DNA of 64,000 bases from an uncultured Methylophilaceae bacterium (lineage in GTDB: Bacteria; Pseudomonadota; Gammaproteobacteria; Burkholderiales; Methylophilaceae): assembly GCA_903899965.1 (NCBI GenBank), contig CAIULB010000010.1, forward strand, positions 62,001-126,000, in the 5' to 3' direction. Each line of letters begins with the position of its first letter. Within the stretch, counting starts at the first letter, position 1. Under the pieces are notes generated by a model, which was given only the letters and a program-made list of their open reading frames with translations, made no database searches and was not told the origin of the DNA. Both the position numbers and the translations under genes were made by a program. Of the stretch, positions 14,182 through 33,268 are shown piece by piece.

Positions 14182-14286
14182 AAGTCTTTAAATAATGCAA
14201 AATGTGTGCCGACTTAGGCTAAAAGTCGGTTTTATTTGCAAATGTATCCTTTATTCATGACGGATTCCCTTTTATACTTGGCATGT

Positions 14287-15285
14287 ATGGAAAATTCATC
14301 ATTACAAAAATCTAGCGCCAACAAAACGCCTATCGAGCTTGCAAAATCAGTGCTTTTGATTGAAGCGAATGCGGTTGAGGCACTTGCACAAAAGCTTGAT
14401 GCTAATTTCACCAAGGCAGTTGACCTCATTTTACAATGCCAAGGCCGCGTTGTGGTGAGTGGCATGGGTAAATCTGGACATATTGGCAATAAAATTGCCG
14501 CTACACTTGCTAGCACTGGCACCCCTGCTTTCTTTATGCACCCTGCCGAAGCCAGCCATGGCGATTTAGGCATGATTACCAAAGATGATGTGGTCATTGC
14601 GCTCTCCAACTCTGGCGAAAGCGATGAAATCCTCACTATCCTGCCTTTACTTAAACGCATGGGCACAAAAATTATTAGCATCACTGGTAAAAACAACTCA
14701 ACACTCGCAAGACAGGGCGACACCCATCTAGATGCCGAAGTCGCTGTTGAAGCTTGTCCATTAGGCCTTGCACCAACCGCCAGCACCACAGCCATGCTAG
14801 CGCTTGGTGATGCACTCGCTTTAGCAGTGCTAGATCAACGTGGATTTTCAGCAGAAGACTTTGCACGCTCACACCCAGGTGGCAGCATCGGTCGTAAGCT
14901 TTTAATACGTATTCAAGATATCATGCGCCAAGGCAGCGCCATTCCCAGCGTGAACATTAAAGCAAGCTTAAAAGATGCGCTGATTGAAATGTCACGCAAA
15001 GGCTTAGGCATGACTGCCATTGTGGATGACCAAAACAAAGCAGTAGGCATTTTTACCGATGGCGATTTACGCCGGGCTTTTGAGAATGGCATTGATATAA
15101 ACAAAACTGGTGTTCGCGATGTCATGCATGCCAACCCTCAAAACATTAGCCCTGAACAATTGGCTGTTGAAGCCGTTGAAATCATGGAGCAAAGAAAAAT
15201 TACCGCCTTATTGGTCGTCAGCCAACAAGGTGAGTTATTAGGTGCACTGAATATGCACGATTTACTTATCGCAAAGGTGGTTTAA
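14287..15285 (+). CDS. kdsD: Arabinose-5-phosphate isomerase KdsD
   Basis: Interconverts ribulose-5-phosphate and arabinose-5-phosphate, the first committed step of Kdo synthesis for LPS. A SIS domain (about 40-180; GMGKSGHIGNKIAATLASTG, SNSGESDEI, HPGGSIGRKL) is followed by two CBS domains (about 205-325; IFTDGDLRRAF). ATG 14287 gives 332 residues, close to the family's 328, so it is preferred over the upstream in-frame ATG 14236. It heads the kdsD-kdsC-lptC-lptA-lptB operon and is divergent from the antiporter. Confidence 0.95.
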   Translation: MENSSLQKSSANKTPIELAKSVLLIEANAVEALAQKLDANFTKAVDLILQCQGRVVVSGMGKSGHIGNKIAATLASTGTPAFFMHPAEASHGDLGMITKDDVVIALSNSGESDEILTILPLLKRMGTKIISITGKNNSTLARQGDTHLDAEVAVEACPLGLAPTASTTAMLALGDALALAVLDQRGFSAEDFARSHPGGSIGRKLLIRIQDIMRQGSAIPSVNIKASLKDALIEMSRKGLGMTAIVDDQNKAVGIFTDGDLRRAFENGIDINKTGVRDVMHANPQNISPEQLAVEAVEIMEQRKITALLVVSQQGELLGALNMHDLLIAKVV

Positions 15286-15287
15286 AA

Positions 15288-15827
15288 GTGGCTTTAGCAG
15301 ACAATATTTCAATTGAACAACGCGCTAAGAAAATCAAGGTAGTCATTTTTGATGTCGATGGCGTCATGACCAATGGTGGTTTGATGCTTGGCGATGACGG
15401 ATTGGAATACAAAAACTTCCATTCGCAAGATGGTTTAGGTTTAAAGCTTTTGCACAACACAGGTATACAAATGGCAATTGTGACTGGCCGCACCTCTAAC
15501 GTTGTCACTAAGCGTGCTGAAAACATCAAAATCACCAATATTTATCAGGGTGTTGAAGATAAATTAGAAGCGTTTAATGAAATTTTAAAAGACTTAAACG
15601 TCAGCGCTGAAGAATGTATGTTCATGGGAGATGATGTGATTGATCTTCCGCCAATGCGCCGGGCTGGTTTGGCAGTCACTGTTCCTCACGCCATGCCTTT
15701 GGTCAAAGAGTATGCACATTACATTACCACGCGCGAAGCAGGTCACGGTGCCGTGCGTGAGCTCTGTGAGTTGCTGATGAAAGCGCAAGGTACTTTTGAC
15801 GGCCAAATGGCAAAATTTCTCAAGTAA
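15288..15827 (+). CDS. kdsC: Kdo-8-phosphate phosphatase KdsC
   Basis: A HAD-family phosphatase of 179 residues that removes the phosphate from Kdo-8-P. HAD motif I is FDVDGVMTNG, motif II is TGRTS and the motif III/IV region is FMGDDVIDLP. The start is GTG 15288, only 2 bases after the kdsD stop, implying translational coupling. Confidence 0.95.
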   Translation: MALADNISIEQRAKKIKVVIFDVDGVMTNGGLMLGDDGLEYKNFHSQDGLGLKLLHNTGIQMAIVTGRTSNVVTKRAENIKITNIYQGVEDKLEAFNEILKDLNVSAEECMFMGDDVIDLPPMRRAGLAVTVPHAMPLVKEYAHYITTREAGHGAVRELCELLMKAQGTFDGQMAKFLK

Positions 15828-15856
15828 AAGGTAGCGACTTTTAAGTCAGAATTGAT

Positions 15857-16588
15857 ATGAAGGGACGCAGTCCAATTATTTTTCCACTTATTGTGCTTGG
15901 GGTACTTGCCCTCATCACATTTTGGATTGATAGCACTGTTAAATTAGGCCCTCCCAAAATCGATGGTAGCAATCGTCATGATGTGGATTATTTTGTAGAG
16001 AATTTCGTTACGACCAAAACCGACTTGAACGGTAATTTACGTAATATGCTTGCCGCAACTGAAATGCGACACTACCCAGATAACGACACAACTGAACTGG
16101 TTAGGCCTCGCTATACCCAATACGGCGAAAATAAACCTTATACGCAAATTGAAGCGCAAAAAGGGTTTGTATCAGCCAATGGAGAAGAGATTGAATTTAA
16201 AGGCAATGTGATTATTGTTCGCCAAGCTTTTGAGGGTAGAGGAGAAATGCACCTCAAAACAGACTACCTTAAAGTCTTACCAAAAACTGAATACGCAAGC
16301 ACTGAGAGTGAAGTTCTTATCACCCAGGACCCAAAAACAGTGATTCATGGCACCGGGATGATTTACGACAAAAATGCAAAAGACTTCACCTTGCAAAAAA
16401 GGGTACGGGTGCATTATGAAAAACCGAGTACAAAATCTGCCAAACCGCTATTGCCTAAAGACAGCACAAGCGATAAGGTAAATCCTACAGAAACCACTAA
16501 TAGAACCGCCCAAAATAATAAGGCAAACGATGTTAAACAACCCTCAGACAAATCTCGCAAGTCAAACCGCGAACACAAGAAAAACTGA
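15857..16588 (+). CDS. lptC: LPS export protein LptC
   Basis: A bitopic inner-membrane protein of 243 residues that takes LPS from LptB2FG and passes it to LptA. It has one N-terminal membrane helix (IIFPLIVLGVLALITFWI) and a beta-jellyroll periplasmic domain (about 45-185; GFVSANGEEIEFKGNVIIVR, TEYASTESEVLIT). The last 50 residues are an unusual low-complexity tail rich in Lys, Ser, Asn and Thr, beyond the normal end of the fold. The 3' part overlaps upstream in-frame codons of lptA. Confidence 0.9.
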   Translation: MKGRSPIIFPLIVLGVLALITFWIDSTVKLGPPKIDGSNRHDVDYFVENFVTTKTDLNGNLRNMLAATEMRHYPDNDTTELVRPRYTQYGENKPYTQIEAQKGFVSANGEEIEFKGNVIIVRQAFEGRGEMHLKTDYLKVLPKTEYASTESEVLITQDPKTVIHGTGMIYDKNAKDFTLQKRVRVHYEKPSTKSAKPLLPKDSTSDKVNPTETTNRTAQNNKANDVKQPSDKSRKSNREHKKN

Positions 16589-16601
16589 TTTCGGAGTCAA
16601 T

Positions 16602-17129
16602 ATGGTGCGTCATTTTTTCATTTCATGTTTATTCATCTTTTTTGCAACATCTGCTTTGGCTGAAAAAGCAGATAAAGACAAACCAATTGAAATAGAAGCG
16701 GATACAGTGACTGTTAATGACGCTAAAAAAGTTAGCGTATATACGGGCAACGTCATCGTGACACAAGGCACTTTGCTTATTAAAGCGGATAAATTAGTCG
16801 TACGCGAAGATGAATCAGGCTTTCAACACAGCTCATCTTACGGAACACCAACCACCTTCAAACAAAAGCGTGAAGGCAAAGATGAGTATATGGAAGGCGC
16901 TGCACAGCGTATTGAATATGATGGGCGGATGGACAAAGTTCAGCTTTATACCAAAGCATGGGTAAAAAAAGGTGAGGATATCGTACATGGTGACTACATT
17001 ATGTATGACGCGAATGCGGAATATTCAGAAGTGATTGGCGGTGGCCCTAAGTCAGCCACTCCAGCAACGCCTTCCGGGCGGGTGAAAGCAATTATTCAAC
17101 CTAAAAACAAACCTGTTGATAACAACTAA
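16602..17129 (+). CDS. lptA: Periplasmic LPS-binding protein LptA
   Basis: Forms the periplasmic bridge of the LPS transport machine. 175 residues: a signal peptide ([19 protein letters not shown], cleavage before EKADK), then a beta-jellyroll domain ([41 protein letters not shown]). ATG 16602 follows CGGAG and gives a normal signal peptide; the upstream in-frame extension overlaps lptC and is rejected. It is followed 8 bases later by lptB. Confidence 0.93.
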
Positions 17130-17137
17130 ACGTCGCC

Positions 17138-17860
17138 ATGACTGAATTAATTGTTCAAAATTTACGTAAGCAATATAAAGCTCGCACAGTTGTTCATGAC
17201 ATCTCGCTCAATATCAAAAGCGGTGAAGTTGTTGGTTTACTTGGCCCAAACGGCGCCGGTAAAACTACAAGCTTTTATATGATTGTGGGTTTAGTGCCTT
17301 CAAATGATGGGCGCATTATATTTAATAGCAAAGACATTAGTCGCCTGCCGATTCATCAACGTGCACGCATGGGTATTTCTTACTTACCTCAAGAGCCATC
17401 CATTTTCAGAAAACTAAGTTCAGCAGACAATATCCGTGCCGTGTTAGAACTCCAAGACCTAAGTCCTGATGCTGTTGAAAAACGACTAGATGAATTATTA
17501 GAAGAATTACATATTTCTCACATTCGCGACAATTTGGCGGTGAGCTTATCTGGGGGGGAACGCCGTCGCGTTGAAATTGCGCGTTGCCTAGCAACGAACC
17601 CTAAATTCATTTTATTGGATGAGCCCTTTGCGGGTATCGATCCAATTGCAGTGCTGGATATTCAAAAAACCATTAAGTTTTTAACAGCTAAAAACATTGG
17701 CGTCCTGATTACTGACCACAATGTACGTGAAACCCTTGGCATCTGCGATAGAGCGTATATTGTAAATGAGGGACGCATTTTTGCTTCAGGCACACCAACT
17801 GAGATTATTGAGAACCAAAACGTAAGAGAAGTCTACCTAGGTAAGGATTTCCGCCTGTAA
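17138..17860 (+). CDS. lptB: LPS export ABC transporter ATPase LptB
   Basis: The cytoplasmic ATPase driving LPS extraction with LptF/LptG, which are not in this window. 240 residues: Walker [10 protein letters not shown] at about 35-43, Q-loop YLPQEPSIF, signature [13 protein letters not shown], Walker [13 protein letters not shown] and H-loop TDHNVRET. It is the last lpt gene, and rpoN follows after 27 bases, the usual proteobacterial order. Confidence 0.97.
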
Positions 17861-17887
17861 TGGACGAAAAAGCGAATTAAGCGCTAA

Positions 17888-19369
17888 ATGAAACAAAGTT
17901 TACAACTCAAGTTCTCACAAAATCTTGCGCTCACACCGCAACTACAGCAGTCTATTCGCTTACTGCAACTATCATCACAAGAGTTGAATCAAGAATTAGA
18001 AACCATCTTGCAAGAAAACCCCTTGCTTGAGCGCACCGACAAAAACGATGATGGCTCAGAAAACATTAATGAGTTTGCGAGCGAAGGGTTTAACACACAA
18101 GACGCATCTGTCAGCACAAACACTGTTCAAAAAGATGAAGAAAGCGTATCTGAAACTTCCCCTCAAGACTCATTAAACGGAGATTATTTTGGTGGAAGCG
18201 GCAGCCACCGCTGGGAAGAAAATAACAGCCCAGACGACGACAATGACTACACATTCCAGGAGGCCGTAGCGCCAACTTTGCGTGAGCACCTCATCAGCCA
18301 GCTGCAGTTGATGCCGCTTTCGGATCGTGACCAAACCTTATCGAGGTTTTTAGTGGATGCGGTGAATGAGGATGGGTATCTAGAGCAATCTCTAGAAGAG
18401 TTGGAAGCTCTTCTCCCAGAAGAGCTTGAAATTGATATTTTGGAGCTTGAAACCGCGCTAAAACATATCCAACACTTAGATCCGCCTGGCGTTGGGGCAC
18501 GCAATCTAGCAGAATGTCTCATGTTGCAATTAAAACTTCTGCCAGTTGAAATTCGCGAAGAAAATAAAACCGTTTTTGAATTAGCACTACAAATTGCAGA
18601 GCATCATTTGGCAACGCTAGCATCACGTGATTATGCAAGGCTCAAAAAGATCCTGCGTTGCGATGACGAGAACCTTCGTATTGCCCAGCAAACGCTTAAG
18701 CAACTCAACCCAAGGCCAGGTAGTGACTATACAAAGCTAGCTGCGGGGCATTATATTCAGCATGAAATTGTGGTAAAAAAAGTGAAAGGCAATTGGCTTG
18801 CAAGCTTGAATGATGAAGTTGTTCCGAAGTTGCGCATCAACAAACTTTATGCTGATATTTTGAAGCGCAATCGTGATAGTTCTAACCAATATTTAAACAG
18901 CCAGATGCAAGAAGCAAAATGGATGATTAAAAATATAGAGCAACGCTTTTCCACCATTTTGCGTGTGTCACAGGCCATTATTGACCAGCAAAGTAAGTTC
19001 TTTGAGCATGGTGAAATCGCCATGCGACCTTTGGTATTGCGCGAAATTGCTGACGAGCTTGGTCTACATGAGTCTACTGTATCTAGGGTCACTACGCGAA
19101 AGTATATGCTCACACCGCGAGGTGTTTATGAACTAAAATATTTCTTTGGAAGCCACGTTGCGACCGACACGGGTGGCGCTTGTTCAGCGACGGCGATTCG
19201 GGCACTGATTAAACAAATGGTAGCTGAAGAAAATCCTAAAAAACCGCTTTCTGATAATCAATTGACTGAAGTGTTATCGAAGCAAGGCATTGTCGTTGCA
19301 AGACGTACAATTGCCAAATACCGCGAGTCTTTAAACATTCCCGCGGCCAACCAACGCAAGTCCTTATAA
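17888..19369 (+). CDS. rpoN: RNA polymerase sigma-54 factor RpoN
   Basis: A 493-residue sigma-54. The glutamine/leucine-rich activator-interacting region I is at the N-terminus (LTPQLQQSIRLLQLSSQEL, ILQENPLLE). An acidic linker (about 50-120), core-binding domain, HTH (LGLHESTVSRVTTRKYM) and the RpoN box ARRTIAKYRE near residue 475 follow. It directs transcription that depends on AAA+ activators. The one NtrX-type regulator in this window has lost the residues needed for that job. Confidence 0.97.
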   Translation: MKQSLQLKFSQNLALTPQLQQSIRLLQLSSQELNQELETILQENPLLERTDKNDDGSENINEFASEGFNTQDASVSTNTVQKDEESVSETSPQDSLNGDYFGGSGSHRWEENNSPDDDNDYTFQEAVAPTLREHLISQLQLMPLSDRDQTLSRFLVDAVNEDGYLEQSLEELEALLPEELEIDILELETALKHIQHLDPPGVGARNLAECLMLQLKLLPVEIREENKTVFELALQIAEHHLATLASRDYARLKKILRCDDENLRIAQQTLKQLNPRPGSDYTKLAAGHYIQHEIVVKKVKGNWLASLNDEVVPKLRINKLYADILKRNRDSSNQYLNSQMQEAKWMIKNIEQRFSTILRVSQAIIDQQSKFFEHGEIAMRPLVLREIADELGLHESTVSRVTTRKYMLTPRGVYELKYFFGSHVATDTGGACSATAIRALIKQMVAEENPKKPLSDNQLTEVLSKQGIVVARRTIAKYRESLNIPAANQRKSL

Positions 19370-19402
19370 GACTTGCATAATCACCACCAAAAGGAGTAAA
19401 CC

Positions 19403-19729
19403 ATGAATCTACATTTAACTGGGCACCACTTAGAAGTAACTCCTGCTTTGCGTGAATATATCCAAACCAAACTGGCTCGCGTCAGCAATCATTTTGATCA
19501 TATGATTGATGTAAAAGTCACATTGACAGTGGAAAAGCTTGCTCAAAAAGTTGAAGCGACCATCCATGTGCCAGGTGCTGATTTGCACGCTGAAGCAAGT
19601 GATTCAGACATGTACAGCGCTATTGATTTGCTGGCTGACAAGCTTGATCGTCAAGTGTTAAAACATAAAGAAAAACACGCTGACCATCACAAAGCTAACG
19701 GCGCTGTGAAACATCAAGCAACTGAGTAA
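19403..19729 (+). CDS. hpf: Ribosome hibernation promoting factor (short HPF)
   Basis: A 108-residue S30AE-family protein (MNLHLTGHHLEVTPALREYIQ; VEATIHVPGADLHAEASDSDMY) that binds the 30S subunit during slow growth and favours 100S dimers. A strong AAGGAG precedes the start. It has the short form without the C-terminal dimerisation domain, and its His/Lys-rich tail (KHADHHKANGAVKHQ) is low complexity. It sits directly after rpoN, as is usual. Confidence 0.93.
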   Translation: MNLHLTGHHLEVTPALREYIQTKLARVSNHFDHMIDVKVTLTVEKLAQKVEATIHVPGADLHAEASDSDMYSAIDLLADKLDRQVLKHKEKHADHHKANGAVKHQATE

Positions 19730-19747
19730 TTAAATAGGCGAACTCTG

Positions 19748-20698
19748 ATGGCCGAAATTAGCGTACACCAGCTCCACCAAGAAACCCGCCGCAAACTGAA
19801 GCTCACTTGGGTGGCGGGTAAATCTGGCGGTGATAATCTATTAAATAGCGAGACGGTTTCCAAGCCTTCGCTGGCTTTAACTGGTCATCGAAATTTCGTC
19901 CATCCCAATCGCGTCCAAGTGCTTGGCTGTGCAGAAATGGACTATTTAAACGGCCTAAACGAACAAGATCAAAAACAAGCCATTCAACATTTATTTACGC
20001 AAAAATTAGCTGCACTGATTGTTGCAAATGGCGAAAAAGTGCCTGCAGAACTCATCGTTGCTGCTGATAAGAACCAAACCGCCTTAATGACATCGCCACT
20101 AGCCAGTCCTAATTTGATGGACTTATTAAGCCATCATTTAGCGCAAGCATTGGCTGAATCAACCAGTGCACATGGTGTATTTATTGAGGTGCAGGGCTTT
20201 GGTGTCCTAATTAAAGGCAGCCCAGCGATTGGTAAAAGCGAATTAGCGCTAGAGCTGATTTCACGCGGACATCGTCTAGTCGCTGATGATATCGTTGATT
20301 TTTATCGTGTTTCACCAGAACGCATCGAAGGTCGCTGCCCACCATTATTACAAGATTTTTTAGAGGTACGCGGACTTGGTATTTTGAATATCAGAGCACT
20401 ATTTGGCGATAGTGCCGTCAAACCAACCAAGCCTCTTGATTTGATCATTCAACTCGAAATGGCTGACACATTAGCGCCACAAAGCCTCGATAGACTTAAA
20501 ATTAAATCTCATGATGAGGATGTATTAGGCATCAAGGTACAAAAGGTAGTGATTCCTGTAGCTGCTGGCCGCAATATTGCGGTTTTGGTTGAAGTCGCTG
20601 TGCGCAACCACATGCTGTTATTAAGAGGGGTCAATGGAACCAAACAATTTATGGACAGACAATCCCGGGAAATAAAAAACAACGCGAGTAAAAGCTAA
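19748..20698 (+). CDS. hprK: HPr kinase/phosphorylase HprK
   Basis: A bifunctional enzyme that phosphorylates and dephosphorylates HPr on the regulatory serine. 316 residues: an N-terminal domain (1-130), a P-loop GSPAIGKSE at about 158-166, catalytic ADDIVDFYR and the family signature VEVRGLGILNIRALFG. Its substrate serine is present in the HPr downstream. ptsN, which usually lies between hpf and hprK in related bacteria, is missing here. It overlaps rapZ by one base (TAATG). Confidence 0.95.
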   Translation: MAEISVHQLHQETRRKLKLTWVAGKSGGDNLLNSETVSKPSLALTGHRNFVHPNRVQVLGCAEMDYLNGLNEQDQKQAIQHLFTQKLAALIVANGEKVPAELIVAADKNQTALMTSPLASPNLMDLLSHHLAQALAESTSAHGVFIEVQGFGVLIKGSPAIGKSELALELISRGHRLVADDIVDFYRVSPERIEGRCPPLLQDFLEVRGLGILNIRALFGDSAVKPTKPLDLIIQLEMADTLAPQSLDRLKIKSHDEDVLGIKVQKVVIPVAAGRNIAVLVEVAVRNHMLLLRGVNGTKQFMDRQSREIKNNASKS

Positions 20699-21537
20699 TG
20701 CAATTAATTATTGTCACAGGCCTTTCAGGCTCAGGTAAAAGTGTTGTACTTAAAGCCCTTGAGGACACTGGGTACTATTGCGTAGATAATTTACCAGCGA
20801 CCCTACTCCCTCAAATTTATGAAAATTTAAGTAGTAACCAAAAATTAATTGCCGTTAGTACTGATACGCGCAGTGCCGCCTTAGAAGCACTGCCTGAGAA
20901 TATTGAAAAACTTAAAGCACAAGGCGTCAACGTCCAAGTATTATTTCTTGAATCCACAACACAAGCACTAGTAAAGAGATTCAGCGAAACACGCCGTAGA
21001 CATCCACTGAGCAACGACGACATTACGTTGGCAGAAAGCATTGAGTGTGAGCGTAAGTTACTTGGGCCACTTTCTGAATTAGGGCATCACATTGATACAA
21101 GCGACTTAAGCGCAAATACTTTACGTGGCTGGGTCAAAGATTTTGTCGCCCAAGAAAACAAAAATATCACCTTGTTATTCACTTCTTTTGGCTTTAAACA
21201 CGGCATCCCATTGGATGCGGATTTTGTATTTGATGTGCGCTGTTTACCCAACCCACATTACGATCCAAAATTACGCCCAATGACTGGTCGAGATGCGCCT
21301 GTTAAGGCATTTTTAGACAAGCAACCTCTAGTACACGACATGTACCAAGACATTCAAAACTTTGTCGCACGCTGGTTACCCAGCTTTGTACAAGAAAATC
21401 GGAGTTACTTAACGATTGCGATTGGCTGTACCGGCGGGCAACATCGTTCTGTTCATATCGTTGAAGAGCTAGGTAAACATTTTTCACAGCAACAACAAGT
21501 CTTAATCAGACACCGAGAATTGGAACTGTCTCTATGA
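20698..21537 (+). CDS. rapZ: RapZ, RNase adapter / nucleotide-binding protein
   Basis: 279 residues with Walker A GLSGSGKSV at 8-16 and the C-terminal RapZ signature (LTIAIGCTGGQHRSV, FDVRCLPNPHYDP). In enterobacteria RapZ senses glucosamine-6-phosphate and guides RNase E to GlmZ. No GlmY/GlmZ-type RNA is visible here, so its client is unknown. It overlaps both neighbours (1 and 4 bases), indicating a tightly coupled operon. Confidence 0.93.
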   Translation: MQLIIVTGLSGSGKSVVLKALEDTGYYCVDNLPATLLPQIYENLSSNQKLIAVSTDTRSAALEALPENIEKLKAQGVNVQVLFLESTTQALVKRFSETRRRHPLSNDDITLAESIECERKLLGPLSELGHHIDTSDLSANTLRGWVKDFVAQENKNITLLFTSFGFKHGIPLDADFVFDVRCLPNPHYDPKLRPMTGRDAPVKAFLDKQPLVHDMYQDIQNFVARWLPSFVQENRSYLTIAIGCTGGQHRSVHIVEELGKHFSQQQQVLIRHRELELSL

Positions 21538-21959
21538 TTGGTATTTTAATTGTGGCGCATGGCGCACTTGGCGAAAGCCTGATTCAATGCGCAACGCACG
21601 TGATGGGCGCCAGGCCGCCATTATTAGAGCAGTTTGGTATTGATATGCATGATGATCCATCCATCTTATTGCCTGTAATGCAAAAAGTAGTGCAAGACCT
21701 TGATGAAGGAGATGGAGTGCTCATTCTTTCAGACATTTATGGCGCCACACCATGCAACATAGTGAGCAAATTGGTGAAACAAAATAGCGTAGAAGGCATT
21801 GCGGGGGTCAATTTACCAATGCTTGTTCGCGCACTGACCTACCGAAATGGCAATCTGGCAAAACTTACAGAAAAGGCCTTAAGCGGCGGACAAGACGGTG
21901 TGATTAATTTTACTGAAGCTGCCTGTAAAGAATCATCCGTCAAGAAAGCAAGCAAATGA
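21534..21959 (+). CDS. PTS EIIA component, mannose type
   Basis: A 141-residue EIIA-Man/ManX-like domain. The phosphorylatable histidine is His9 in ILIVAHGALGES, and the second block DGVLILSDIYGATPCNIVS is family-typical. No EIIB, EIIC or EIID gene is near, so it probably ends a regulatory phosphorelay (EI to HPr to EIIA) rather than importing a sugar. ATGA overlaps on both sides (rapZ and ptsH). Confidence 0.92.
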   Translation: MIGILIVAHGALGESLIQCATHVMGARPPLLEQFGIDMHDDPSILLPVMQKVVQDLDEGDGVLILSDIYGATPCNIVSKLVKQNSVEGIAGVNLPMLVRALTYRNGNLAKLTEKALSGGQDGVINFTEAACKESSVKKASK

Positions 21960-22222
21960 AACAAGACATTCTCATCATCAACAAACTCGGCCTGCATGCT
22001 CGCGCTTCAACGAAGCTCACGCAAACTGCCAGCCAATTTAAAAGCGACATTTGGATAGAGCGCAACGGACGTCGCGTGAATGCAAAAAGCATTATGGGCG
22101 TCATGATGTTAGCAGCCAGTAAAGGCAGTACTGTTTCACTTGAGGCAACAGGTGTAGATGAATCAGCTGCCATTGAAGCGCTCGTTGAGTTAATTAACAA
22201 TCGTTTTGGTGAGCCAGAATAA
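21956..22222 (+). CDS. ptsH: Phosphocarrier protein HPr
   Basis: An 88-residue HPr. The active-site His is in NKLGLHARASTKLT (EI-dependent phosphorylation), and the regulatory Ser is in NAKSIMGVMML, the HprK site. It passes phosphate from EI to the EIIA encoded just upstream. The 1-base overlap with ptsI (TAATG) couples translation. Confidence 0.96.
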   Translation: MKQDILIINKLGLHARASTKLTQTASQFKSDIWIERNGRRVNAKSIMGVMMLAASKGSTVSLEATGVDESAAIEALVELINNRFGEPE

Positions 22223-23946
22223 TGAGCTTTTCTATTCACGGCGTAGGCGTGTCAAACGGGATTGCCATCGGTCATGCCCATTTGGTTTCGCACGCCCTGT
22301 TAGAGGTTGTTCATTACCAAGTCCCTGAAAATCTAATCGAACAAGAAGTCGCGCGTTTTGATCAGGCGATTAATACCGTCAAGCTTGATTTAGAAACTGT
22401 TAAATCGCAGCTCCCTAACAAGTCTCCAGCCGAACTCGCCGCTTTCATCAATACCCACTTGATGATTTTGAACGACCACACACTCGCTGAAGATCCTAAA
22501 CTCACCATTAAAAACGAACACTGCAATGCTGAATGGGCGCTCAAACAGCAGATGGAAAATATTGTTGAGCAGTTTGACCAAATTGAAGACGAATACCTGC
22601 GTGAACGTAAACATGATGTCGTGCAAGTCGTAGAGCGAATTATTAAAGTCTTGCTTGGACGGCCTAGTCAAGTGCCTGTGCTTGAACAAGAAAAAGCCAT
22701 TATTTTAGTTGCGCACGACATTTCACCTGCGGACGCCATTCAATTTAAGCATCACCAATTTGCTGCTTTTGTAACAGACGTTGGTGGCGCAACCTCGCAC
22801 ACTGCAATCTTGGCACGAAGTTTAAATATTCCGTCGATCGTTGCCCTGCAACGTGCAAGAACACTCATTCGTGATGGCGAATTGCTAATCATAGATGGCA
22901 CGCAAGGCGTTGTCATTGTGAATCCAGATAAAGATACGCTGGCGGAATACAAACTTAAGCAAGAGCAATGGCAAATCGAGCAACAAAAACTCAAGCGCAT
23001 TAAGCTCACCAAAGCAGTCACTTTGGACGGTACAACAATTGATTTATACGCCAATATTGAAGTGCCGGATGACGTTGTTCAGGTGAAGGCTTCGGGCGCT
23101 AGCGGCATCGGCTTATATCGTACTGAATTCTTATTTATGAATCGCCGTGAAGCGCCTAATGAGCAGGAACAATTCGAAGCCTACAAAGCGGTAGCAGAGG
23201 CTATGGATGGAAAACCTGTCACCATTCGAACGCTTGACCTAGGTGCCGACAAACAAATGAACGCCGACACCGAACGCTCATGCACTAATCCAGCGCTAGG
23301 TTTACGTGCGATTCGTTTGTGCTTAGCCGAGCCGCAAATGTTCCATATTCAATTGCGCGCGTTGCTTCGGGCTTCAGCGTTTGGCAACATTAAAATCCTT
23401 ATTCCAATGCTGTCTTCACTCACTGAACTTAGGCAAACATTACTGCTCATTGAGCGCGCAAAACAAAGCTTAAGACTGGAAAAAGCTGAATTTAATAACG
23501 ATATTGAAGTTGGTGGCATGATTGAAATCCCAGCAGCAGCATTGTGCGCAGAAGCCTTTGCTAAGGAGTTAGATTTCTTATCAATTGGCACCAATGATTT
23601 AATTCAATACTCACTCGCTATTGACCGCACTGATGATAGCGTTTCTCACCTTTACAACCCACTTCATCCAGCGATTCTTCAACTCATCGAAATAACACTT
23701 AAAGCTGGAAAAAAGCTAGGCAAAAAGGTCTCGGTTTGCGGTGAAATGGCGGGGGATTCAAAATTAACGCGTCTTTTATTAGGCTTAGGCTTACGCCAAT
23801 TCTCTATGCATCCTTCGCATATTTTGTCAGTCAAGCATCAGGTCTTACAGAGCGATTTAGTTAAGTTGGTGCCCACTGCGCGCAAGATTTTATCTAGCCA
23901 TGATAGTGACAAAATTGAACCTTTAATCCAAAAAATGAATCTCTAA
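22222..23946 (+). CDS. ptsI: PTS enzyme I (phosphoenolpyruvate-protein phosphotransferase)
   Basis: A 574-residue EI. The swivelling domain carries the active His in GGATSHTAILARSLNIPSI (about 188-206). The PEP-binding TIM barrel has GIGLYRTEFLFMNR, TIRTLDLGADKQ and the catalytic Cys in VSVCGEMAGD. It takes phosphate from PEP and passes it to HPr. Last gene of the rpoN-PTS cluster. Confidence 0.96.
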   Translation: MSFSIHGVGVSNGIAIGHAHLVSHALLEVVHYQVPENLIEQEVARFDQAINTVKLDLETVKSQLPNKSPAELAAFINTHLMILNDHTLAEDPKLTIKNEHCNAEWALKQQMENIVEQFDQIEDEYLRERKHDVVQVVERIIKVLLGRPSQVPVLEQEKAIILVAHDISPADAIQFKHHQFAAFVTDVGGATSHTAILARSLNIPSIVALQRARTLIRDGELLIIDGTQGVVIVNPDKDTLAEYKLKQEQWQIEQQKLKRIKLTKAVTLDGTTIDLYANIEVPDDVVQVKASGASGIGLYRTEFLFMNRREAPNEQEQFEAYKAVAEAMDGKPVTIRTLDLGADKQMNADTERSCTNPALGLRAIRLCLAEPQMFHIQLRALLRASAFGNIKILIPMLSSLTELRQTLLLIERAKQSLRLEKAEFNNDIEVGGMIEIPAAALCAEAFAKELDFLSIGTNDLIQYSLAIDRTDDSVSHLYNPLHPAILQLIEITLKAGKKLGKKVSVCGEMAGDSKLTRLLLGLGLRQFSMHPSHILSVKHQVLQSDLVKLVPTARKILSSHDSDKIEPLIQKMNL

Positions 23947-26045: not shown

Positions 26046-26813
26046 ATGAAAATCGCCACCTGGAACGTTAACTCACTCAATGTGCGCTTGCCACACGTAT
26101 TGGATTGGCTCGTGGCTAACAAGCCCGATGCTTTGTGCCTGCAAGAAACCAAGCAAGAAGACAGCAAGTTTCCTTATGAGGCTTTAAAAGAAGCTGGCTA
26201 TAACGGGATTCATAGTGGACAGAAAACCTATAACGGTGTTGCTATTATTAGCCCACACAACTTAAATGAAGTGCACATGGGCATCCCCAACTTTGCAGAT
26301 GAACAAAAACGCGTGATTGCTGCGACCATTAATGGGGTTCGTATCGTGTGTGTTTATATCCCGAATGGCCAAGCAGTAGGTTCTGATAAATACGCTTATA
26401 AGCTAAGCTGGCTTCAAGCATTCACGCCTTGGCTGGCAGCTGAAATTAGTCACAATTCCAAGCTAGCCTTGTTAGGCGATTACAACATTGCACCTGAGGA
26501 TATTGATTGTCACGACCCCGCCGCATGGATAGGCCAAGTATTAGTGAGCGAACCAGAGCGAGAAGCGTTCAAAGCACTTACTCAATTGGGCTTAGAAGAT
26601 AGCTTCCGCCTATTTGAAAAAGGCGATGGTCAATTTAGTTGGTGGGATTACCGCATGGCTGGGTTTAGACGTAATTTAGGTATGCGTATAGACCATATTT
26701 TGGTCACCCCAGAACTCAGCAAAGTCAGCACTAAGAGCTATATCGACAAATCTCCACGCAAGTTAGAACGACCTAGCGACCACACGCCAGTGGTATTGGA
26801 ATTCGATATTTAA
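26046..26813 (+). CDS. xthA: Exodeoxyribonuclease III
   Basis: An AP endonuclease/3'-exonuclease of base excision repair, 255 residues. The catalytic motifs are NVNSLNVR, CLQETK, LGDYNIAP, RIDHILV and RPSDHTPVV. It is translated from an ATG 1 base after prlC and overlaps the methyltransferase gene by one base, so the three form one operon. Confidence 0.95.
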   Translation: MKIATWNVNSLNVRLPHVLDWLVANKPDALCLQETKQEDSKFPYEALKEAGYNGIHSGQKTYNGVAIISPHNLNEVHMGIPNFADEQKRVIAATINGVRIVCVYIPNGQAVGSDKYAYKLSWLQAFTPWLAAEISHNSKLALLGDYNIAPEDIDCHDPAAWIGQVLVSEPEREAFKALTQLGLEDSFRLFEKGDGQFSWWDYRMAGFRRNLGMRIDHILVTPELSKVSTKSYIDKSPRKLERPSDHTPVVLEFDI

Positions 26814-27958
26814 TGACGATTAGTTGGGTAGAAGGTGGTACAACACTTAGCGCACGCTGGCAATCCGAAGCTGGCGTTGCTGCGCCCAGACGAGTATTGA
26901 TTGTAGACGACACCATCAATGCAGATACCGCATACAGACTTGCTTGCGAAGGCACGGCGATGCTCTGGCGAGGTGACTTTCACAATGCGCGCCAACTATT
27001 ACAAGCGATGGCAAAACGCTGCGGCCTAAAGAAAACATCTAAAAAAAACAAACAAGAAACAGCACCAATAGACCTTAAGCAAGCGTTCAATTTACACCGT
27101 GTTATACAAGCACAACGCGCTAGAATTCTGGGAATGTTACTGATCGAGGTGGGTGAAGGTTATAAAATTTCACTTAAACGCGCACCAGATTTTAGCCAAG
27201 CTTGTTTAGAATCTTACGGTCAATTCACCAGCCCATTTGTCGTTTCATTGCGTGAGCTACAAGGCTTAGTGGGCGCACATGAATGGCGCAAAAAAGGCGT
27301 CCCAATTGAAGTGTTGGGCGCAAACATTCATCCGCATTACGGCGTATTTTCACCAATACGTGGTGAGTATTTAGATCTGCTCGCAACAGCACCTTTGCCG
27401 AGCACCGAGCTTGCTTTTGATATAGGCACTGGTACTGGAGTTATTTCAGCCTTACTCGCTAAACGCGGCATCAAAAAAATCATCGCAACAGATCAAGACT
27501 CACGCGCCATCAAATGTGCTCAGGAAAATATCTCGCGACTTGGCTTGCAAAAGCAAATCACACTCATACAAACCAATATGTTTCCCGAAGGCAAAGCACC
27601 GCTAGTTGTATGTAACCCACCGTGGTTGCCAGCCAAGCCAAGCTCGCCGATTGAATATGCCGTCTACGACCCTGAAAGTAAGATGCTATTAGCTTTTCTA
27701 AATGGCTTAAAAGTGCATCTTAGTGATGACGGTGAGGGCTGGTTGATTATGTCTGACTTTGCAGAGCATTTGGGATTAAGGGGCAAAGATGAACTTAGGA
27801 ATTCAATTGAAAAAGCAGGCTTAAATGTAGAAGAAAAGCTTGATATCAAGCCAAAACATGGCAAGGTAACGAATGAAACAGACCCATTACATCAAGCTAG
27901 AAAATCAGAAATCACTTCGCTTTGGCGCTTAAAAATCCAAAAAGGCTTGAAAAGCTAA
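26813..27958 (+). CDS. Class I SAM-dependent methyltransferase
   Basis: A 381-residue protein. An N-terminal region of about 180 residues has no clear motif. The Rossmann methyltransferase domain starts at FDIGTGTGVISALLAKRG (SAM binding) and contains VVCNPPWLPA, the NPPx motif of N-methyltransferases acting on rRNA or protein glutamine (RlmG/PrmC-like architecture). The exact substrate cannot be read from sequence. It shares an operon with prlC and xthA. Confidence 0.82.
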   Translation: MTISWVEGGTTLSARWQSEAGVAAPRRVLIVDDTINADTAYRLACEGTAMLWRGDFHNARQLLQAMAKRCGLKKTSKKNKQETAPIDLKQAFNLHRVIQAQRARILGMLLIEVGEGYKISLKRAPDFSQACLESYGQFTSPFVVSLRELQGLVGAHEWRKKGVPIEVLGANIHPHYGVFSPIRGEYLDLLATAPLPSTELAFDIGTGTGVISALLAKRGIKKIIATDQDSRAIKCAQENISRLGLQKQITLIQTNMFPEGKAPLVVCNPPWLPAKPSSPIEYAVYDPESKMLLAFLNGLKVHLSDDGEGWLIMSDFAEHLGLRGKDELRNSIEKAGLNVEEKLDIKPKHGKVTNETDPLHQARKSEITSLWRLKIQKGLKS

Positions 27959-27967
27959 GTAATAAAA

Positions 27968-29245
27968 CTACTTGGTTTTAATTCCTAATTGCTTAAGCTT
28001 GCGATATAAATGCGTACGCTCAAGCTCTACCGCTTCCGCCACACGGCTCATATTCTTATCCGCTTTTTGGATGTGATGCTCAAAATATAAACGCTCAAAT
28101 TGATCTCTCGCTTCTCGCAAAGGTTGGTCTAAATCAATAGGCAAACCATTGGCTTTTGGAATCGATTGCTCAGTGACCGCCGTTTGCAGTGGTGCAAACT
28201 GTTCCATTACACGGTTCACATCATCTAAACTGATTTTTTCGCCAAGACTCGTCTGCATCAAATTACGAATCACACTATCTAGCTGAGTTAAATTACCAGG
28301 CCAATCTGCGTTTCTCAACATGTTAAGCGCAGCTATTTCAAACTCTCGGTAAGGCGAAGCCGTAGTTTCAACCAAAAGAAAAGCCATCGCTCGAACCAAA
28401 TCAGGAATATCTTCTCGATGATCTGCCAAGCTAGGAATGCGTAATGTACTGACCGACAAAGTTTGCAGTAAGCCATTGTCAAAACTACCTTCTGTGACCT
28501 TGTCGGGTAATGGTTGTGAAGTCCCACATACCACACGCGTCCCATATTTTTCAGCCTTCGCTAATAAAACCATGAGACCTTTTTGCTGTGTTTTATCTAA
28601 ATCAGCAACCTCTGGAATAAATAAAGCGCCTTCACGCAATTGCTCCAAAATATCTAGCGGTGCATCGGCAAGTCGTTGGAAATCAAGAAGCTCCATCCAA
28701 GGAGTATTCGCCTGATGTAAAAACTTGGCACAGAGTTCTGCGCCGCTTCCTTTTTCGCCTATCAACAACAAAGGCGCTTTGCTCATGCTGATTTGCTCTA
28801 AACGCTGACGCAACTCGTTTATTACAGAACTTTTACCAAGGCTTAACAGGCTCATGTCAGACTTTGGTAGTTGCTCACTATGTTTAAGTGCAGCGGTCAC
28901 AGTTTTCAGTAACTTCTGTAACGCGATTGGTTTTTCTAAGAAATCGAAAGCACCTATACGCGTCGCTTCCACGGCGGTATCTATGGTGCCATGGCCTGAC
29001 ATCATGACAACGGGCATAGTCAACATCCCACCAGTACCCCACTCTTTAAGTAGAGTAATGCCGTCACAATCAGGCATCCAAATATCAAGCAATACCACAT
29101 CTGGGCGTGTATGTTGGCGATACTCCCTAGCCTCGGCTGCATTTTCAGCGAGCATCACTTGATAGCCCTCATCCTGCAAAATATCTCTTAACAGCTCGCG
29201 GATACCAATTTCATCATCCACGACTAACACTTGTCTTGCGGTCAT
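27968..29245 (-). CDS. ntrX: NtrX-like response regulator with degenerate AAA+ domain
   Basis: A partner of NtrY, 425 residues. The receiver domain (1-120) is intact: D10/D11, phosphorylation site D54 and K105 in LEKP. A Fis-type HTH closes the protein (MSRVAEAVELERTHLYRKLKQLG). The central domain is damaged. Walker A reads GEKGSGAE (163-170), with Ala replacing the essential Lys. The Walker B region reads LFIPEVADL, with Pro replacing the Asp. The whole GAFTGA loop that contacts sigma-54 is absent. It cannot work as an ordinary sigma-54 activator and probably acts as a phosphorylation-controlled DNA-binding protein. It overlaps ntrY by 4 bases. Confidence 0.9.
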   Translation of the reverse strand: MTARQVLVVDDEIGIRELLRDILQDEGYQVMLAENAAEAREYRQHTRPDVVLLDIWMPDCDGITLLKEWGTGGMLTMPVVMMSGHGTIDTAVEATRIGAFDFLEKPIALQKLLKTVTAALKHSEQLPKSDMSLLSLGKSSVINELRQRLEQISMSKAPLLLIGEKGSGAELCAKFLHQANTPWMELLDFQRLADAPLDILEQLREGALFIPEVADLDKTQQKGLMVLLAKAEKYGTRVVCGTSQPLPDKVTEGSFDNGLLQTLSVSTLRIPSLADHREDIPDLVRAMAFLLVETTASPYREFEIAALNMLRNADWPGNLTQLDSVIRNLMQTSLGEKISLDDVNRVMEQFAPLQTAVTEQSIPKANGLPIDLDQPLREARDQFERLYFEHHIQKADKNMSRVAEAVELERTHLYRKLKQLGIKTK

Positions 29246-31413
29246 GCTTGCTCTACCTTTTTGCGTTTGACGCTTTTTTCTTTAGATGCCAGGAGATGAA
29301 TTGGAAGGGTTACAACTACCACGGCTCCTGTTTCATTTGAGGTATCCACCTTAATATTCTCGATGCCGATTGTACCTTGATGCTCCTCTACAATTTTCTT
29401 CACAATCGCTAGACCCAAACCAGTTCCATGACGCTTGGTTGTCATGTAAGGCTCAAAAGCACGCGACAAAATATCAACAGGGAAACCAGCGCCGTTGTCT
29501 GTCACCATCAAATATACTTGGTTAGCTTTTTTTAATGTTGCCACTTCAATTCTTGGCGCTTTCACTCCATCTAAAGCATCTTGTGCGTTTTGTAATAAAT
29601 TATGCAGTACTTGACGTAGCATAGTTGCATCGCCCAACACATCAAGTGCTTGGTCTGCCAAATTTACTTTAAGACTAATACCAGGTGGCTCATATAAATC
29701 CAATACGTCCTGCACTAGCTTGTTAAAATCTAAATGTGTTAAATTAAGTACTGGTGCGCGGGCATATTCACTAAATTCGTTGACCATCGTTTTCATGGCA
29801 TCGACTTGCGCAACAATCGTACCTGTTGCACGCTTCAGCATTTCGCTATCAGCCTCATCTAATTTAGATGAAAGCTTGTGCTCAATACGCTCCGCAGACA
29901 ATTGAATTGGCGTAAGTGGATTTTTAATCTCATGGGCCAAACGTCTTGCCACTTCCCCCCAAGCTGCGTCGCGTTGGGCCTGAACCATAGTGGTAATATC
30001 ATCAAACACGACCAAATATCCGCTATCAGCACTGTATGGTAAACGTGTACCTCGCAACAAAAGCGTACGTTGACCTTGTGTGGTAACCACTTCCATTTCC
30101 GCTTGCCAGTCGCTCACCTTACTTTCGTTAGCATTTTGCAAGATGGCATCAGTGAGATTTTTTAAGTTTGGGAATTCTTGACCGACTTTCTCAAAATGAT
30201 GCCCAGAGAAATGGCCAAGTACAACACCCAAAATATTCGAAGCAGTCATGTTATACGTTCGGAGCTCACCCTTATCATTGAGGGCCAAAACACCAGATGA
30301 CAAGTGTGCCAAAATGGTTTCTAAATAACCGCGCGCGGCTTCAACTCTCGATCTGTTTCGTTCTGCAGCTTGCTTTGCTTCGCCAAGTTGTTTGGTCATA
30401 CTATTGAAAGACTGGACTAACACACCAAGCTCATCGTTACCATGCACCGGAAGCACTGTTTCATAGTCACCGCGGGCAATCGCTGTTGTTCCATCAGCCA
30501 ATACTCCAAGTGGTGCAGACAATCGACGACTCAATACAAAAGCAACTGAGACAGCAGTAAGCATTGCTAACATTAATACTAAGGTTAGAGTTAAAGCGAA
30601 AACTTGCTTCATTGATTCACGACTCAATGAAAGCTCTTGATAGTCCTGATAGACGTTTTGTACAGCTTCAGCTGTATTTGAAAGCTGTTTAGGAACCGGT
30701 TGTAACAGCTGCAAAATTCGCGTTTCGCCACCGATATCATTCATATTGACAGGAATAAGTGCGCGAAGATACAAGCCCTTACCAGTAATAGGTTCGATGA
30801 TACCAAAATCTCTCTGACGCGCCTGTCTAAGCTGGTCCAAGCTTGGTGTATCTGGTAAAAATGTCGTTGCGTCATTACTAGAGAAAGCGAGAATTTTTCC
30901 TTGCATTGTGAGTAAAACAGCATCTTGCACACCGCTCTTCTCACGCAAATCATTTAGCACAGTAAGCTGAGAGTTGGTTGGTTGGAACGCAAGATTTAAA
31001 GCCATGCTGTCGCCTTTTTGCTTAAGGTCAGCCAACATAGTATCTAGTGAACTTTGCCCTAATCGTACCCCGCCCTCCAAGGCCGCTTCAACTTTGACGT
31101 TAAACCAAGACTCAATAGAGTGCGTTAGAAAATTCACGGAAACAGCATAAACAATTACACCGGGTGTAATTGCCATCAAAGCAAATGCGCCCAAAAGTCT
31201 TAAAGTAAGGCGACTGCCGATTACTCGCGCACGTATTTGTTTAAAAAGACGGGATAGCTGAAACGCGATAATGAACAGCAAGGCACTGGCAAAAGCGATA
31301 TTGAGACCTAACAATAAGGTGTAATCAGCCCCTGAAACACTACTTCCTGCTTGGGAAAGCAGATAAAGCAATCCGCCACCAAGTATCGCAGTCATCAGAA
31401 CAATATATCGCAT
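29242..31413 (-). CDS. ntrY: NtrY-like sensor histidine kinase
   Basis: A membrane histidine kinase of 723 residues. N-terminal transmembrane helices (about 3-60 and 75-105), an extracytoplasmic region to about 265, another helix (VFALTLTLVLMLAMLTAVSVA), a HAMP domain (about 290-345) and a PAS-like domain (about 355-465). HisKA carries its His in RRLAHEIKNPLTPIQLS, and HATPase has VTDNGAGFP and GTGLGLAIVKKI. It phosphorylates NtrX. In other bacteria the pair responds to nitrogen or redox state; the signal here is unknown. It follows the DUF4390 gene by 15 bases. Confidence 0.92.
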   Translation of the reverse strand: MRYIVLMTAILGGGLLYLLSQAGSSVSGADYTLLLGLNIAFASALLFIIAFQLSRLFKQIRARVIGSRLTLRLLGAFALMAITPGVIVYAVSVNFLTHSIESWFNVKVEAALEGGVRLGQSSLDTMLADLKQKGDSMALNLAFQPTNSQLTVLNDLREKSGVQDAVLLTMQGKILAFSSNDATTFLPDTPSLDQLRQARQRDFGIIEPITGKGLYLRALIPVNMNDIGGETRILQLLQPVPKQLSNTAEAVQNVYQDYQELSLSRESMKQVFALTLTLVLMLAMLTAVSVAFVLSRRLSAPLGVLADGTTAIARGDYETVLPVHGNDELGVLVQSFNSMTKQLGEAKQAAERNRSRVEAARGYLETILAHLSSGVLALNDKGELRTYNMTASNILGVVLGHFSGHHFEKVGQEFPNLKNLTDAILQNANESKVSDWQAEMEVVTTQGQRTLLLRGTRLPYSADSGYLVVFDDITTMVQAQRDAAWGEVARRLAHEIKNPLTPIQLSAERIEHKLSSKLDEADSEMLKRATGTIVAQVDAMKTMVNEFSEYARAPVLNLTHLDFNKLVQDVLDLYEPPGISLKVNLADQALDVLGDATMLRQVLHNLLQNAQDALDGVKAPRIEVATLKKANQVYLMVTDNGAGFPVDILSRAFEPYMTTKRHGTGLGLAIVKKIVEEHQGTIGIENIKVDTSNETGAVVVVTLPIHLLASKEKSVKRKKVEQA

Positions 31414-31428
31414 CAGTAATTACTCACC

Positions 31429-32004
31429 CTAAAATGCAAAGACTGGCGTCCAGCGATATCGTTCAGATGCAATATTCCAATCATCCGAACCAATTGCTTC
31501 AACCTGAACTGGCTTGGGTAATTTTGTCTGGTCTAAACGTACTTTGATAGCGGCCAAATACACATCGCCTTTTTTAAGCAATTTTTTATCAACTACTGAC
31601 CAAAATTTAATATTAGAAATTTCTTCTTTGGCTTGTTGAATGGAAGCAAATGATTGTTGGCGGCCATTACGATTTACCAAGTACTGCCGAGAGAGAGCGT
31701 GATAACTTAATGTAAGGTATTGAGACTGTGTGATAATTTCATCATCAAACCAATATTTTCTTGGAGCGCTAAGCTGGAACTCAATTAAGAAAGTCAGCGG
31801 AACGCCTTTATTTAAAGCATCCTCAATGGCTGGACTTAGTACAATATCAAAATCTGTACTGAGTGCGTAACTATCTTCTGCCGCTAACAACTCCGCACTT
31901 TTAATATGAATAGCACTACTCGCCGCAACAGCAATCGGCGCAAACGCTATAAGTAGCGTCAAAATAATAGTCTGAAGAGACTTAATGCTTTTGTAATAAG
32001 GCAT
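31429..32004 (-). CDS. DUF4390 envelope protein
   Basis: About 191 residues, starting MPYYKSIKSLQTIILTLLIAF, a signal peptide or membrane anchor ending near APIAVAA. A periplasmic domain with SAPRKYWFDDEIITQSQYLTLSYHALSRQYLVNR, matching the DUF4390 family found between rsmB and ntrY in betaproteobacteria, follows. The start at 32004 overlaps the rsmB 3' end by 23 bases; upstream in-frame starts at 32019 and 32046 overlap it further. Function is unknown, but conserved linkage to ntrYX suggests an accessory role. Confidence 0.82.
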   Translation of the reverse strand: MPYYKSIKSLQTIILTLLIAFAPIAVAASSAIHIKSAELLAAEDSYALSTDFDIVLSPAIEDALNKGVPLTFLIEFQLSAPRKYWFDDEIITQSQYLTLSYHALSRQYLVNRNGRQQSFASIQQAKEEISNIKFWSVVDKKLLKKGDVYLAAIKVRLDQTKLPKPVQVEAIGSDDWNIASERYRWTPVFAF

Positions 32005-33268
32005 AAAATAAACCATCATGCTGAGCAGTCGGTTGTAATTGTCCATTCTTTAAAGCTAAGCCTGCCAAGGGTTCGTTCAAAGGCAATTGCTGCGCATCTA
32101 AATGTGTCTTTAAAAAATTATCAATCTGACGTTGGTTCTCTTCTTGAAACACTGAACACGTCACATAAAGCAATTTACCACCCTTTACCAACGCCTGCCA
32201 CAAAGAAGGCAATATCAATGCTTGTTGTCTAGTAAAGGAACTAATATCCGCTTCGCGGCGCAGCCATTTAATATCAACGTGACGTCTAACAATGCCAGAA
32301 GCCGTGCATGGCACATCCGCCAAAATTCGATCAAATGGTTTTCCATCCCACCAATCTGTAGCCTTTCCTGCATCGCCGACTAATAAAGTGGCTTTTAGAT
32401 TTAAGCGGTCGAGATTACTTTTTGTACGGGCAATCCGCGTCGCATCATTATCAACCGCGACCAAATCTACATCGGCCAACTCTAGAATCTGACCCGTTTT
32501 TCCACCTGGCGCACAACAGGTGTCTAGCACTCGCTGCCCATCCTTCAAGTCCAACGCATAGCCAGCAATTTGCGCAGCATAATCTTGTACTGAAGCTTCG
32601 CCAGCACCAAAGCCAGGAATTCGATCTACTGGAACAGGTTTTTCTAAGGTCACTGCATTTGCCCCCAAAGCCATGGTAGCAATTCCATCCATATTCAGTT
32701 TGGCGACAAAGTCTACCGCTGAAATTTGTCGCTGATTCACCCGTAAGGTCATCGGAGGATGTTGATTGCCTGCCTCAAGCATGCTCTGCCAACTTTCTGG
32801 ATATTGATGCTTAAGCTTGGTTATCCACCAAGTTGGATAGGAGTAAGTTGCGAATTCGTTACCCTCAAGATTGGCGAGCAATTCAGCTTGTTGGCGAAGA
32901 AAGTTACGCAAGACACCATTCACCAGACCTTTAGCCCAGGTTTTTTTAGATACCCCTGCCGCCGCCTTAACTGCTTGGTCAACAACAGTGTGGGATGCCG
33001 CTTTGTCGTATTGAAGTTGATAAACAGCGACTAATAACAAACACTGTAATTTGGCATCATCTAATGGCTTTTGTAATAGCTGATCCAATAAAGCTTCTAT
33101 CGTGCCGTAGAAACGCAAAGTGCCATAACTCAAGTCTTGAGCCACTGCACGCTGTTGTGGCGTAATGTTTTGATACCTTGCAAATAGGCTTTCTAAAACC
33201 ACACCTAAATTACGACCTGCAAAGACTTGTCCGATTGCTTCTGCAGCAATCTGCTGTGAGATATGCAC
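31982..33268 (-). CDS. rsmB: 16S rRNA m5C967 methyltransferase RsmB
   Basis: 428 residues. An N-terminal NusB-like domain (1-140) and a Rossmann methyltransferase domain (VLDTCCAPGGKTGQILEL for SAM) with two catalytic cysteines in DVPCTASGIVRRH and YVTCSVFQEEN. It methylates 16S rRNA at C967. It lies in the conserved def-fmt-rsmB order. Confidence 0.95.
   Translation of the reverse strand: MHISQQIAAEAIGQVFAGRNLGVVLESLFARYQNITPQQRAVAQDLSYGTLRFYGTIEALLDQLLQKPLDDAKLQCLLLVAVYQLQYDKAASHTVVDQAVKAAAGVSKKTWAKGLVNGVLRNFLRQQAELLANLEGNEFATYSYPTWWITKLKHQYPESWQSMLEAGNQHPPMTLRVNQRQISAVDFVAKLNMDGIATMALGANAVTLEKPVPVDRIPGFGAGEASVQDYAAQIAGYALDLKDGQRVLDTCCAPGGKTGQILELADVDLVAVDNDATRIARTKSNLDRLNLKATLLVGDAGKATDWWDGKPFDRILADVPCTASGIVRRHVDIKWLRREADISSFTRQQALILPSLWQALVKGGKLLYVTCSVFQEENQRQIDNFLKTHLDAQQLPLNEPLAGLALKNGQLQPTAQHDGLFYALLQKH

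Follow-up and report, generated by a model that had tools for sequence, protein, structure and literature searches.

The ntrX gene found in the 64,000-nucleotide stretch of DNA analysed here (the window) is the beta-proteobacterial NtrX, PlrR in Bordetella, of a freshwater 'Candidatus Methylopumilus'-like methylotroph. Its product is very probably a phosphorylation-controlled, sigma-54-independent DNA-binding regulator, in which a pseudo-AAA+ domain has been kept as a scaffold. The same motif state is found throughout the long-form NtrX proteins of the beta-proteobacteria, and ntrX is retained in genomes that lack rpoN.

The ntrX locus and the state of the central domain

The gene begins with an ATG at position 29245 of the minus strand and, as the preliminary description held, is open over its whole length (27968-29245), encoding 425 amino acids in which Pfam recognises, in order, a receiver, an AAA-like domain, an AAA lid and a Fis-type HTH (Table 1), the first three matches covering aa 6-116, 136-273 and 275-353. 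It overlaps ntrY by 4 bp, the ntrY stop lying within the ntrX start (ATGA), and this partner kinase, likewise reported as intact, has its H (HEIKNPL), N, G1 and G2 boxes in place. The adjoining NtrY and DUF4390 (PlrP) genes, with rsmB upstream, mark the locus as a beta-type NtrYX (PlrSR) system, of which DUF4390/PlrP is a proposed third component (PMC13001219). The order rsmB-DUF4390-ntrY-ntrX recurs in 74 of the 80 loci of our Methylophilaceae comparison, the remaining 6 being short or contig-end-truncated stretches or lacking the upstream match. The best-scoring NCBIfam family was NF051870 (nitrogen assimilation response regulator NtrX), but at 272.5 bits the match falls below the curated cut-off of 600, and the product is therefore filed as a beta-type NtrX/PlrR rather than as a member of that equivalog. 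At its other end, ntrX converges with a methyltransferase-like gene on the opposite strand (26813-27958), with 9 bp (27959-27967) between the two stops.

Table 1. Positions in the window of ntrX, its domains and motifs, and associated genes
Feature	Position	Strand	Basis
ntrX, 425-aa response regulator with pseudo-AAA+ domain	27968..29245	-	Open frame, Pfam domains, orthologs
Receiver domain, aa 4-120, phospho-acceptor D54 intact	28886..29236	-	PF00072, E 5.7e-30
Degenerate AAA+ core, aa 135-273 (Sigma54_activ_2)	28427..28843	-	PF14532, E 3.9e-47; PDB 3co5, E 1.7e-16; AF2
Degenerate Walker A GEKGSGAE, aa 163-170, Lys to Ala169	28736..28759	-	No Lys in 80/80 Methylophilaceae
Shortened segment, aa 177-207, expected place of L1/GAFTGA loop	28625..28717	-	Length comparison
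Degenerate Walker B LFIPEV, aa 208-213, Asp to Pro211, Glu212 kept	28607..28624	-	Alignment
Arginine finger 1 replaced by Asp256	28478..28480	-	Acidic in 80/80 relatives
AAA+ lid domain, aa 274-350, sensor-II Arg lost	28196..28426	-	PF25601, E 2.6e-11
Fis-type HTH, aa 377-425, ERTHLYRKLKQLGI	27971..28117	-	PF02954, conserved recognition helix
ntrY, partner histidine kinase, intact	29242..31413	-	HAMP, HisKA, HATPase_c; H, N, G1, G2 boxes
DUF4390 protein, PlrP homolog	31429..32046	-	PF14334, E 1.3e-51
rsmB-like rRNA methyltransferase, upstream end of conserved cluster	31982..33268	-	Gene order in relatives
rpoN (sigma-54), intact, 493-aa ORF	17888..19369	+	PF04552, E 3.5e-68

The two ends of the protein are intact, as had been noted. 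In the receiver, the active-site residues D10, D11, D54, S83 and K105 are present and invariant in 80 relatives. The HTH has the conserved recognition helix ERTHLYRKL of beta-type NtrX, its Pfam match (PF02954) being weak in the window protein (20.8 bits, E 3.2e-4) and found in 24 of 30 family members.

The central domain is matched by PF14532 over the complete profile (1-138 of 138) with 160.4 bits against a gathering cut-off of 25, and this family is found in 30/30 relatives. As a reference for its motifs we used L001, a canonical NtrC-type activator from this genome. L001 shares common ancestry and domain order with NtrX and, unlike it, keeps GESGTGKE, GAFTGA, LFLDEI and both arginine fingers. 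Aligned with this protein, the window NtrX bears out each of the three motif losses first described: GEKGSGAE stands opposite GESGTGKE, with Ala for the Walker A Lys; LFIPEV stands opposite LFLDEI, with Pro for the Walker B Asp and the following Glu (E212) kept; and the ELFGHERGAFTGA-bearing segment of 54 residues in L001 is reduced to 31, the GAFTGA motif being deleted. Further losses, beyond those described before, affect arginine finger 1 (R to D256), arginine finger 2 (R to T262) and the sensor-II motif GNxRE (R to T320). Without the GAFTGA L1 loop, and without the Walker A Lys, the Walker B Asp, the arginine fingers and the sensor-II Arg, the protein does not have the features of a functional sigma-54 activator (bEBP). 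A normal ATPase cycle should be impossible for it, because the Walker, arginine-finger and sensor-II residues have been replaced. Judged by these motifs, the central domain is a predicted pseudo-ATPase, and with the L1 loop gone it would be unable to contact sigma-54.

The domain has nevertheless been maintained. Among nine Methylopumilus-clade sequences, in which synonymous sites are near saturation and the values accordingly approximate, pN/pS is 0.05 in the receiver, 0.13 in the AAA-like core, 0.11 in the lid and 0.07 in the HTH, with the linker (aa 351-376, 0.41) serving as an internal control. The gene is thus under strong purifying selection, dead domain included. The central domain is also predicted to stay folded, with an AF2 pLDDT of ~90 over aa 160-270. 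The best Foldseek matches of the model are the Brucella NtrX structures 5m7n, 5m7p and 5m7o, and structures of VpsR (7v2b, 7v2v) are also among the matches. By sequence, the nearest solved structure for the central domain is PDB 3co5, a Neisseria gonorrhoeae protein entered as a 'putative two-component system transcriptional response regulator'.

Distribution of the degenerate domain

Orthologs of ntrX are present in 144 of 150 Methylophilaceae genomes and in 292 of the 300 genomes of the order, the named relatives including 'Candidatus Methylopumilus', Methylovorus, Methylobacillus, Methylotenera and Methylophilus. An alignment across the family, proposed earlier as a check, showed the motif loss to be clade-wide: the Walker A Lys is absent in 80/80 aligned Methylophilaceae proteins, the position of arginine finger 1 is Asp or Glu in all 80, and the Walker B Asp is retained in just 15. 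Complete motifs in close relatives would have pointed to a single decayed gene, and every close relative is in the same state as the window protein. Beyond the family, the shortened segment measures 29-32 residues in 52/52 long-form beta-type orthologs, and decay of the ATPase site is common to all long-form beta orthologs examined. A Lys occupies the Walker A column in one of these 52, which we take to be a highly diverged protein of genus g16 (L158) in which the alignment is unreliable. Since it is shared throughout the relatives, the motif loss is ancient, and the same state in every close relative rules out sequencing error or chance. In the small marine genomes of g16, also Methylophilaceae, NtrX (L157, L158) is of undiminished length and still has the receiver and the recognition helix of the HTH, but its central domain is eroded so far as to be almost unrecognisable.

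One may ask whether the window gene is a pseudogene in the making, decaying in one streamlined genome that has not yet lost the kinase and the receiver. The genome is indeed small (1.55 Mb), and the g16 marine relatives have a strongly eroded central domain. However, the same motif state occurs in 80/80 Methylophilaceae and in the 52 long beta-type orthologs, larger genomes (Methylobacillus, Methylovorus) share it, pN/pS in the affected domain is 0.13, and not even the g16 genes have lost the receiver or the HTH. We regard isolated decay as extremely improbable and, on the relatives' motif state and pN/pS, reject it together with sequencing error. As relatives throughout the beta-proteobacteria share its state, the window NtrX belongs to its group as an ordinary member, and the gene has not been broken recently.

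Comparison with other classes places this state within a wider series. In the gamma-proteobacteria, NtrX keeps the Walker A Lys in 26/29 proteins and arginine finger 1 in 26/29, and GAFTGA is found in 0/29, the loop reading ELFGSEEGD or similar; the motif was found in no beta or gamma NtrX sampled. The loop segment, 31 aa long in the window NtrX, has 49 residues in NtrX of the gamma class and 54 in canonical NtrC. The loop of Brucella NtrX (5m7n) is shortened too and carries ELFGTEMDGGERKVG. At the other extreme, short NtrX proteins of 211-264 aa, consisting of receiver and HTH without the AAA domain, occur in ten beta families (f3, f4, f8, f10, f18, f20, f25, f31, most of f34, and f49). Because these domain-deleted families keep receiver and HTH, the AAA domain is unnecessary for the basic output. 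On a tree of receiver and HTH the short form needs 5 changes, of which the starred branches force only 2, rooting and inner order being weak, and the deletion of the whole domain, seen in several beta families, possibly happened more than once. Taken together, the motifs suggest a graded decay, from a missing GAFTGA (alpha, gamma, beta) to a dead ATP site (beta) to deletion of the domain (several beta families). In genus g57 of f34, most species have the short NtrX (L159, L167), the exception being a single genome with the long form and its pseudo-AAA domain (G427:C14:16996-18231); this mixture may reflect a recent domain deletion, gene transfer or contamination.

Retention of ntrX in the absence of sigma-54

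In the genome of the window, both rpoN and the canonical GAFTGA-bearing NtrC-type protein are intact, and the decay of NtrX is therefore not due to loss of sigma-54 here. The rpoN gene is present in 142 of 150 Methylophilaceae genomes and missing in 21 of the 300 genomes of the order. With f41 set aside, about 11 genomes of the order, each at least 98% complete, have retained ntrX despite lacking rpoN. Where rpoN is missing, the gene is full-length in G188, G232, G236 and G387 and of the short form in G179, G223, G248, G321, G338, G368 and, as inferred from the tally, G437, the form being partly assigned from match scores alone. The f41 genomes without rpoN were left uncounted, their receiver matches being weak: in genus g64 of that family (G189, G233, G273, G310, G343, G372, G401, G430; 1.5-2.8 Mb) rpoN is undetected and ntrX is absent or gives a weak receiver match. 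In G086, of genus g16 (94% complete), ntrX is kept and rpoN was not detected.

Retention in some 11 near-complete rpoN-less genomes means that NtrX does not need sigma-54, at least there, and is the strongest evidence in our analysis for a sigma-54-free function. Together with the missing L1 loop and the dead nucleotide site, it makes the sigma-54 independence of NtrX well supported. The preliminary description had spoken of a regulator converted to such independence; the independence stands, and no conversion took place in this gene or genus. Where rpoN and ntrX coexist, an unconventional link to sigma-54 may persist, because rpoN is present in most of the Methylophilaceae. One such link would be indirect: NtrX might act chiefly by titrating NtrC/NtrB, by cross-talk with them or through oligomers mixed with canonical NtrC, and thereby affect sigma-54 output. 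A canonical NtrC-type protein and RpoN do occur in the same genome, and cross-talk between NtrYX and NtrBC has been discussed for Azoarcus (PMC9769520). However, ntrX persists in rpoN-less genomes, a subunit without loop and arginine fingers would disable any ring that it shared, and no sign of such an interaction was seen in the sequence, so that we consider it very unlikely.

Within the window, sites resembling the sigma-54 -24/-12 element occur at chance level (8 versus 5.4 expected), and the count over the genome is mixed with noise from matches with 1-2 mismatches. The motif GCAN9TGC, a proposed NtrX operator taken from another organism (R. sphaeroides), has 19 matches versus 37 expected. 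The window rpoN lies in a row of genes (14236-23946; kdsD-kdsC-lptC-lptA-lptB-rpoN-hpf-hprK-rapZ-PTS EIIA-ptsI-like) in which LPS export adjoins sigma-54 and nitrogen-PTS genes.

Proposed output of a regulator with a dead ATPase

Based on homology, D54 of the NtrX receiver would be phosphorylated by NtrY, whose activity the periplasmic DUF4390 protein probably modulates. Phosphorylation would in turn lead to dimerisation and to binding of the Fis-type HTH to operators, from where NtrX may activate or repress ordinary (sigma-70) promoters without ATP hydrolysis. The purifying selection described above suggests that the pseudo-AAA+ domain is retained as a scaffold or as a dimerisation or spacing module. 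The central domain may still bind nucleotide weakly, since most Methylophilaceae retain the glycines of the P-loop and the Glu of Walker B.

With this in mind, one may speculate that the pseudo-AAA+ domain binds a nucleotide or other ligand without hydrolysing it, and that the bound ligand controls whether the protein dimerises or binds DNA, in the manner of c-di-GMP in VpsR or of unhydrolysed ATP in R. capsulatus NtrC. Consistently, G163 and G166 of the P-loop are nearly invariant, Glu212 is kept in 79/80 relatives, new near-invariant residues (C172, W183) have appeared, the arginine-finger site has become acidic, and VpsR is among the Foldseek matches. The residues that make most of the phosphate contacts (Walker A Lys, arginine fingers) are nevertheless gone, and other families have kept the gene while lacking the entire domain, which makes such gating rather unlikely. 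A further reading, which we likewise hold to be rather unlikely, is that the pseudo-AAA+ domain of beta NtrX is no fading relic. It would then be a repurposed module whose own conserved signature (C172 invariant, W183 nearly so, the acidic finger position) serves to bind a ligand or to set the geometry of the dimer, and it would mark an intermediate stage on the way from a complete sigma-54 activator to the short NtrX forms of other beta families, which consist of receiver and HTH.

Several known systems are close to the window NtrX. The Bordetella PlrPSR system shares the rsmB-DUF4390-NtrY-NtrX order, the receiver, the Fis-type HTH and the lack of a working AAA+ (PMC13001219). PlrR is described as a receiver and a DNA-binding domain, whereas the window NtrX still has a folded AAA+ remnant; in Bordetella trkAH follows plrR, whereas here xthA and prlC are found instead, in convergent orientation. 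Phosphorylated PlrR is essential in Bordetella (PMC13001219), and in the beta-proteobacterium Azoarcus olearius Tn-seq marked ntrX as putatively essential (PMC9769520). The central domain of 3co5 (143 aa) and an NtrX of f44 (L152, only about 46% identical to the window NtrX over its whole length) have the same Sigma54_activ_2 pseudo-AAA+, with a short loop and no P-loop Lys. Brucella abortus NtrX (5m7n, 5m7o, 5m7p), the closest full-length solved fold, also lacks GAFTGA but, unlike the window NtrX, still has the Walker A Lys; its crystal structures were obtained with ATP and ADP. Caulobacter NtrX is another published case without GAFTGA. NtrC of R. capsulatus and Caulobacter, a different paralog, has lost the sigma-54 contact loop and acts at sigma-70 promoters (PMC10274813); in contrast to the window NtrX, its ATP site is kept and functionally important.

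NtrX with a dead ATPase is thus an already recognised type, represented by PF14532, by PDB 3co5 and by published notes on beta-proteobacterial NtrX, which has been described as lacking AAA+ (PMC13001219, citing earlier work). The single gene reported here is, by itself, an ordinary case. What possibly merits reporting is that many beta NtrX proteins still have the domain, as a conserved pseudo-ATPase. The homology-based label 'sigma-54-dependent activator' would be wrong for an entire bacterial group, and the series of loop lost, ATPase dead and domain deleted would represent a natural gradation from an ATP-driven activator to an ordinary response regulator.
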